64,000 nucleotides of DNA, taken from assembly GCA_018127085.1 (NCBI GenBank), contig CM030731.1:248001-312000 (forward strand), written 5' to 3'. Origin of the DNA: Pneumocystis sp. 'macacae'. Its lineage: Eukaryota > Ascomycota > Pneumocystomycetes > Pneumocystales > Pneumocystaceae. Shown piece after piece: positions 14,252 to 15,153 of this stretch. The notes beneath the pieces were generated by a model. It was given only the letters and a program-made list of their open reading frames with translations. It was not told the origin of the DNA and did not search any database. Position 1 is the stretch's first letter; each line of letters opens with the position of its first letter. A program made the translations under genes and the position numbers.

Positions 14252-15153
14252 ATGGCGGACTCGCAGCAGAATTCTGTGCCTACATTTAAGCTTGTTCTTG
14301 TGGGTGATGGAGATATGTTTATGAGTTTTTTTCTGCAAAAAAAGGCTAATTTTTGAGTACGTACAGGAAAAACAACTTTTGTGAAACGCCATTTAACTGG
14401 GGAGTTTGAGAAGAAATATGTTGGTGAGAGATTTTTTGTGTTTTCTTTTGTCCTAGTATGACTGTTTGCAGCGACTTTGGGTGTAGAAGTTCATCCAGTT
14501 ACGTTTTACACAAGTTATGGTACTCTTTGCTTTAATACGTGGGACACTGCTGGACAGGAGAAATTTGGGGGTCTCCGTGATGGTTATTATATTCAAGGGC
14601 AATGTGGTGTGTTTCATGTCTTGTTTATTTTTTGTGGAATTTATTGTTTCAAATAGCTATTATTATGTTCGATGTTACAAGTCGTATTACATATAAAAAT
14701 GTTCCTAATTGGCATCGCGATCTTGTCCGAGTGTGTGAGAATATTCCTATCGTTCTTTGTGGAAACAAGGTTGATGTGAAAGAACGCAAAGTTAAAGGTG
14801 TGTTATAATTTGTTTTATATTTAATGTATTTTAATTATTCGTTTTTTGCAGCAAAGTCTATTACCTTCCATAGGAAAAAGAATCTTCAATATTATGATAT
14901 TTCTGCTAAATCAAATTATAATTTTGAAAAGCCATTTTTGTGGTTGGCTAGAAAACTAATTAATTCCAATTTAGAGTTTGTGGCATCTCCTGCATTGGCG
15001 CCACCTGATGTAATATCTTTAATTGTGCTACTATCTTTTGTATTAATTTGAATTTAGGTTCAAATACCTCAGGAGATGATTACTCAATATCAAATTGAAC
15101 TTGAGGAGGCTCAAGCACGTCCTCTTCCTGATGAAGATGACATTGATTTGTAG
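14252..15153 (+). CDS. spi1: Ran GTPase (Gsp1/Spi1)
   Basis: Starts at ATG 14252 ([20 protein letters not shown]) and ends with the acidic tail [11 protein letters not shown] at 15153. The six exons give every Ran hallmark: the P-loop [40 protein letters not shown], the NKVD base-recognition motif, [20 protein letters not shown] and the DEDD tail. Ran drives nuclear import/export and spindle assembly. Introns 2-5 are ordinary GT-AG (for example GTGAGA at 14424, GTGTGT after the Cys codon, GTAATA before VQIPQ). Intron 1, inside the P-loop codons, is not: see 14313-14360. Coding similarity is high enough that the identity is close to certain. Confidence 0.97.
14313..14360 (+). other. AT-AC intron in the Ran P-loop
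   Basis: Exon 1 ends GGT GAT GGA G and the next coding block begins GT ACA GGA AAA ACA. Joining them gives the invariant GDGGTGKT and removes 48 nt that begin ATATGT and end GAGTAC. The ends are A and C, not G and G. The boundaries cannot be slid, because the bases flanking the intron differ from its end bases. Apart from its first base the 5' site looks like the common GTATGT, and GCTAAT upstream of the 3' end looks like an ordinary branch site, so this resembles a U2-type AT-AC intron rather than a U12 one (ATATCC). Confidence 0.75.

Follow-up and report, generated by a model that had tools for sequence, protein, structure and literature searches.

An intron that begins with AT and ends with AC appears to interrupt the GTP-binding loop (P-loop) codons of the essential GTPase Ran (Gsp1/Spi1) in Pneumocystis macacae. 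Judged from genomic sequence, positions 14313-14360 of the window (the whole stretch of 64,000 nucleotides that was analysed) would be a genuine spliceosomal intron that is excised by the ordinary, U2-type machinery, a reading to which we assign a probability of roughly 0.9. The Ran gene extends from ATG to stop at 14252-15153 of the plus strand, as do all features of the gene described here, and its splicing and translation give six exons, five introns and a product of 217 amino acids. Exon 1 (14252-14312) terminates in ...GGTGATGGAG, and exon 2 starts with GTACAGGAAAAACAACT. Between them lies intron 1 (14313-14360; 48 nt, phase 1), which reads ATATGTTTATGAGTTTTTTTCTGCAAAAAAAGGCTAATTTTTGAGTAC; its text runs from ATATGT to GGCTAATTTTTGAGTAC, that is, ATATGT...CTAAT...GAGTAC. 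Introns 2 (14424-14471), 3 (14607-14656), 4 (14798-14851) and 5 (15010-15057) are of the GT-AG type. An earlier note on this DNA had spoken of five other introns, all GT-AG; the type was right, and the number is corrected to four in the spliced coding sequence. The product scores 159.3 bits against Pfam Ras, and its closest solved relative is yeast Gsp1 (412.9 bits). The GDGGTGKT loop and full-length similarity by which Ran is identified were obtained together solely with the AT-AC excision. A second Ran copy was rejected, as the genome searched (8,274,841 bases in 19 contigs) contains a single full-length locus and six further protein matches that are at most 43% identical. The predicted proteins neighbouring Ran (window 12211-17812) resemble, by eye, a ubiquitin-like protein, a TDG-like DNA glycosylase, a Rad51-like recombinase and a CCHC zinc-knuckle protein.

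The sequence and coordinates of intron 1 given in the earlier note proved correct, since GDGGTGKT was restored by no other single excision in a scan with the first base at 14270-14344, the last base up to 14399 and a length of at least 21 nt. Its ends are fixed, as had been claimed, because the last G of exon 1 differs from the last C of the intron and the first A of the intron differs from the first G of exon 2. The claim that nearby GT donors ruin the P-loop was also borne out. Enumeration of single GT-AG or GC-AG introns (donor 14255-14344, acceptor up to 14424) gave 81 choices, which were rejected because 0/81 yield GDGGTGKT; 16 of the 81 run in frame to the natural C-terminus, and 0 of these 16 contain G-x4-GK[ST]. 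A pair of canonical introns flanking a micro-exon was considered unlikely from room alone, the enumeration covering single introns: just 67 nt extend from the GT at 14300 to the end of the CAG at 14366. Predicted introns in the surveyed DNA have a median length of 45 nt in our own gene model, where 36 nt is an imposed minimum intron length and no observed one. Retention of intron 1 was rejected because of a premature in-frame TGA at 14354-14356, reached after 34 residues. Two AT-AG introns were rejected on the resulting loop, which would be GDGVRTGKT for an end at 14357 (GAG, 14355-14357) and, through removal of loop residues, GDGGKTT for an end at 14366 (CAG, 14364-14366). When restricted to GT-AG and GC-AG introns, the gene model picked 14304-14366 in the untrained pass and 14325-14366 in the trained pass. 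With the AT-AC prior set equal to the GT-AG prior, 14313-14360 was ahead of the best GT-AG alternative by 6.5 log units, which is insufficient to decide at a realistic rarity of AT-AC introns; homology aside, the signal of intron 1 is modest.

The predicted signals of intron 1 combine the AT start and AC end of a U2-type AT-AC intron with a donor remainder, branch and spacing of the major class. Percentiles were taken among 485 predicted GT introns, with our gene model scored on its own predictions. The context of the donor ATATGT (14313-14318), minus +1/+2, ranks at the 99.8th percentile; the corresponding values are 64.7 for the branch score, 46 for the acceptor context and 78.4 for the length. 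The donor GTATGT is used in 30 of these 485 introns. The predicted branch region GGCTAAT (14344-14350) has its presumed branch A at 14349, and CTAAT occurs in 50/485. The distance from branch to intron end is 11 nt, as in 70 of the 485 (mode 10). The acceptor TAC (14358-14360) is placed by the excision that gives GDGGTGKT and by LRTGKTT in two relatives. Under the proposed mechanism, U1 and then U6 would select GAG/ATATGT by way of an unusually strong donor remainder despite the A at +1, and U2 would select CTAAT. During ligation of the exons, the usual contact between first G and last G would be replaced by one between first A and last C. With A at +1, AC would be preferred at this step, and TAC (11 nt past the branch A) would be taken with GAG (8 nt) and CAG (17 nt) skipped, joining ...GGTGATGGAG to GTACAGGAAAAACAAC... 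(14312 to 14361). In eukaryotes, A and C ends have been described as the sole replacement that the terminal G-G pair allows, and the cryo-EM geometry of the terminal pair as hard to reconcile with A-C (passages of PMC8283771).

Comparison with related species, a check proposed in the earlier note, revealed protein records that break at the same place and imply matching intron ends. Among the best 120 of 7,971 Ran matches under threshold, 107 contain GDGGTGKT, and the 13 without it consist of six named Pneumocystis, five with conservative loop changes and two rearranged models. P. jirovecii is absent by name among these 120. All six named Pneumocystis records among the matches listed are damaged at the P-loop, each in its own way: the loop reads GDGDMFMRKTT in P. 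macacae (PMAC_000790, P0004), GDGDMSMPGLRTGKTT in P. wakefieldiae, GDGDMSMPRHL in P. carinii, GDGDMSIPVFFWKKKTNFGKKYV in P. murina, LVLADFALRTGKTT in P. oryctolagi and EGIVGKTT in P. canis. Their Pfam Ras scores are 129.5-148.3 bits, versus the 159.3 bits of the AT-AC product. The P. macacae record agrees with the Ran of the window outside the loop, and its loop is reproduced by a forced GT-AG intron at 14325-14366. This record is thus the window's own gene, and the independent relatives number five.

The intron ends of these relatives were deduced from protein text, assuming no annotated intron within the quoted stretches. GDGDM in the three rodent species (P. wakefieldiae, P. carinii and P. 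murina) corresponds to GAY ATG after the exon G, so that, read back from protein, the intron would start with AYATG there, which leaves C possible at +2. The P. murina record continues with ACN AAY TTY, which fits the CTAATTTT branch region of the window. At the other end, LRTGKTT in P. oryctolagi and P. wakefieldiae implies that the base before GN ACN would be C, or A if the arginine is AGR. The P. canis record is uninformative for both ends. We infer that both AT-AC ends are supported in clade P1 (P. macacae and P. oryctolagi) and clade P2 (P. wakefieldiae, P. carinii and P. murina). This suggests that the AT-AC oddity may be common to the genus Pneumocystis and that it trips up public gene models.

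Conservation of this kind would be expected if the two ends are mutually dependent, because an essential gene would be left with AT-AG or GT-AC after a single reversion. Disfavour of these two combinations would extend to the major class on the strength of yeast work. For U12-type introns, AT-AG and GT-AC have been reported as disfavoured (part of PMC3584512). The mutual dependence of the ends would be the simplest reason for conservation of the intron in Pneumocystis, and the strong donor remainder would resemble compensation. The ancestor of the genus has been dated to about 140 mya (CI 180-101; PMC7940399, in part). We consider the odds slightly in favour of a genus-wide single Ran AT-AC intron having been kept for about 140 My, by locked ends or by tuning of Ran, as a natural test of the first-last contact. 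Tuning would mean that the same AT-AC intron is kept by selection, with slow or incomplete splicing adjusting the amount of Ran. Such selection is consistent with support for the intron in both clades, with the early TGA reached on retention, and with the finding that 42-49% of P. murina and P. carinii introns showed retention (a passage of PMC4764891). However, the donor context, which is very strong, and the unremarkable branch resemble a compensation in favour of efficient splicing, and interdependence of the ends accounts for conservation without regulation; we therefore regard selection for tuning as unlikely.

Which spliceosome removes the intron was addressed with searches for snRNA genes in the genome. 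Those of the major class lie above their cut-offs, with U2 at 137 bits, U6 at 83.5 bits and U1 at 70.3 bits, the last barely above its cut-off of 69.5. The U6 gene (contig C8, 34870-34973) aligns without a break over the full length of the family model. The U6 gene of fission yeast has an intron, and the Pneumocystis U6 gene appears to be without an intron of this kind. Splicing of intron 1 by a residual U12-type (minor) spliceosome would agree with the AT-AC ends, with six of the eight donor letters of ATATCCTT and with a U6atac match of 26 bits (cut-off 33). Yet this sole U6atac match is below the cut-off and overlaps the U6 gene. The search for U11 and U12 suggested in the earlier note was made genome-wide with U4atac included, and none of the three was matched, a blank that cannot prove absence; three of the four minor searches (U11, U12, U4atac and U6atac) gave no signal in any control. 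The best match in intron 1 to the U12 branch consensus TTCCTTAAC, which derives partly from general knowledge, is 4/9. Nor does the donor agree: intron 1 reads ATATGTTT, with GT instead of CC at +5/+6, whereas the U12 donor is given as RTATCCTT, in which one C of +5/+6 may be replaced by T (in a section of PMC2846911). Surveys report no minor introns or splicing in Ascomycota (passages of PMC10639083 and PMC2846911), and minor splicing is described as lacking in Ascomycetes and Basidiomycetes (a passage of PMC8199999). Removal by the minor spliceosome is thus very improbable. The AT...AC ends, strong major-type donor, CTAAT branch and failed U12 donor rule together support the U2-type reading that the earlier note had offered.

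It is equally improbable that a GT-AG intron is used and that the divergent loop given for Pneumocystis Ran in the public records is real. Six such records exist, some of them from RNA-Seq-aided annotations (described in parts of PMC4764891 and PMC7940399), and the annotations of P. murina and P. carinii were built with RNA-Seq, yet intron 1 is missing from them (PMC4764891, in part). The six records are, however, mutually inconsistent exactly at the loop, the 16 in-frame GT/GC-AG products lack G-x4-GK[ST] altogether, and most Ran proteins among the matches listed hold GDGGTGKT, as counted above. An error of sequencing or assembly at either or both intron ends is extremely improbable. Nothing observed speaks for it, and two changes would be required. 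The relatives' independent records break at this very place and imply the same intron start in three cases and the same end in two, a strong argument against such an error.

Other AT-AC introns, whose search the earlier note had recommended, were sought with a gene model of our own, for which 264 kb (the window and 20 stretches of contig C1) served as training DNA. The trained model predicted 602 introns in this DNA, of which 11 are GC-AG. Some of the GC-AG predictions at least fall in doubtful models of a GC-rich island (window 42500-47000), in which the GC content of 500-base windows ranges upward from 0.54, has its maximum of 0.698 at 44000-44499 and declines on both sides; outside the island, the window is mostly 25-35% GC. 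An open reading frame within the island (45829-46506) resembles methionyl-tRNA synthetase by eye, and the island could be a hot spot of biased gene conversion. As a control, 254 further dinucleotide pairs, AT-AC among them, were admitted singly, and the best single gains belonged to pairs other than AT-AC, which was outside the top 15 by gain. This lack of enrichment indicates that the gene model alone has no power to find AT-AC introns. With a stricter prior, three AT-AC introns were called in the window. One is that of Ran; the other two, in models on the minus strand (48019-48784 and 50267-50632), were taken as spurious because they lie beneath a plus-strand model. Genome-wide, the signature GATATGT...CTAAY...YAC gave 19 listed matches at 18 distinct sites, compared with 12 matches of the reversed control, and the gene model uses the signature site as an AT-AC intron at one of the 18, that of Ran. 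Under a generous prior, 6 of the 19 loci received AT-AC introns at other positions, with gains up to 12.7, indicating low specificity of the model. The variant ATAAGT...CTAAY...YAC had 60 matches versus 200 for its control, as match counts with flanks aside. Under the strict signature, and for that signature alone, the putative AT-AC intron of Ran looks solitary; the recommended search therefore supports Ran alone where it relies on the signature (1/18) and is without power where it relies on ab initio prediction. AT-AC introns account for 0.1% of introns across 61 species (a passage of PMC3033335) and are stated to be far rarer in fungi than in animals and plants (part of PMC7072748).

How does this intron compare with known systems? 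U2-type AT-AC introns (AT-AC II) were reportedly described by Wu and Krainer in 1997 and by Dietrich et al. in 1997. Intron 1 of Ran resembles them in its AT...AC ends, major-type donor body and branch, and coupled first and last base, but differs in interrupting P-loop codons in the gene for an essential ascomycete GTPase, in its very short length of 48 nt and in being apparently genus-wide. With U12-type AT-AC introns it shares the terminal dinucleotides, but differs at donor +5/+6 and the branch, and no convincing minor snRNA was found in the genome search. Suppressor pairs of the first and last base of yeast introns are said to have been obtained by Parker and Siliciano in 1993 and by Chanfreau et al. 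in 1994. In these pairs, too, A first and C last reportedly go together, although they are engineered mutants and the Ran intron is natural. Caenorhabditis elegans is described as having no U12 parts, and at least 42 of its 59 AT-AC introns were judged real (in a section of PMC3033335). It is thus like Pneumocystis in combining AT-AC introns with no minor spliceosome found, and unlike it in being an animal with dozens of cases as opposed to one supported case. No published report combining Pneumocystis, AT-AC and intron was found in a search that subscription literature largely lay beyond and in which related topics were checked by title. The main texts of PMC4764891 and PMC7940399 make no mention of non-canonical introns where seen, the word "canonical" occurring 0 times in each.

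Overall, the observation stands together with its probable U2-type reading, and both appear to reach beyond one genome to several Pneumocystis species. The Pneumocystis records found either lack the GTP-binding loop or show it scrambled, and structural or comparative studies that use them could go astray; for these records a corrected Ran model is available. The case illustrates that annotation limited to GT-AG introns can break one conserved protein at the same place in several genomes. For the biology of the genus, the Ran intron would represent natural, apparently old coupled A...C ends in a fungus where the snRNA search revealed no minor spliceosome, and it makes the trapping of intron ends by mutual dependence testable through species comparison and yeast minigenes.
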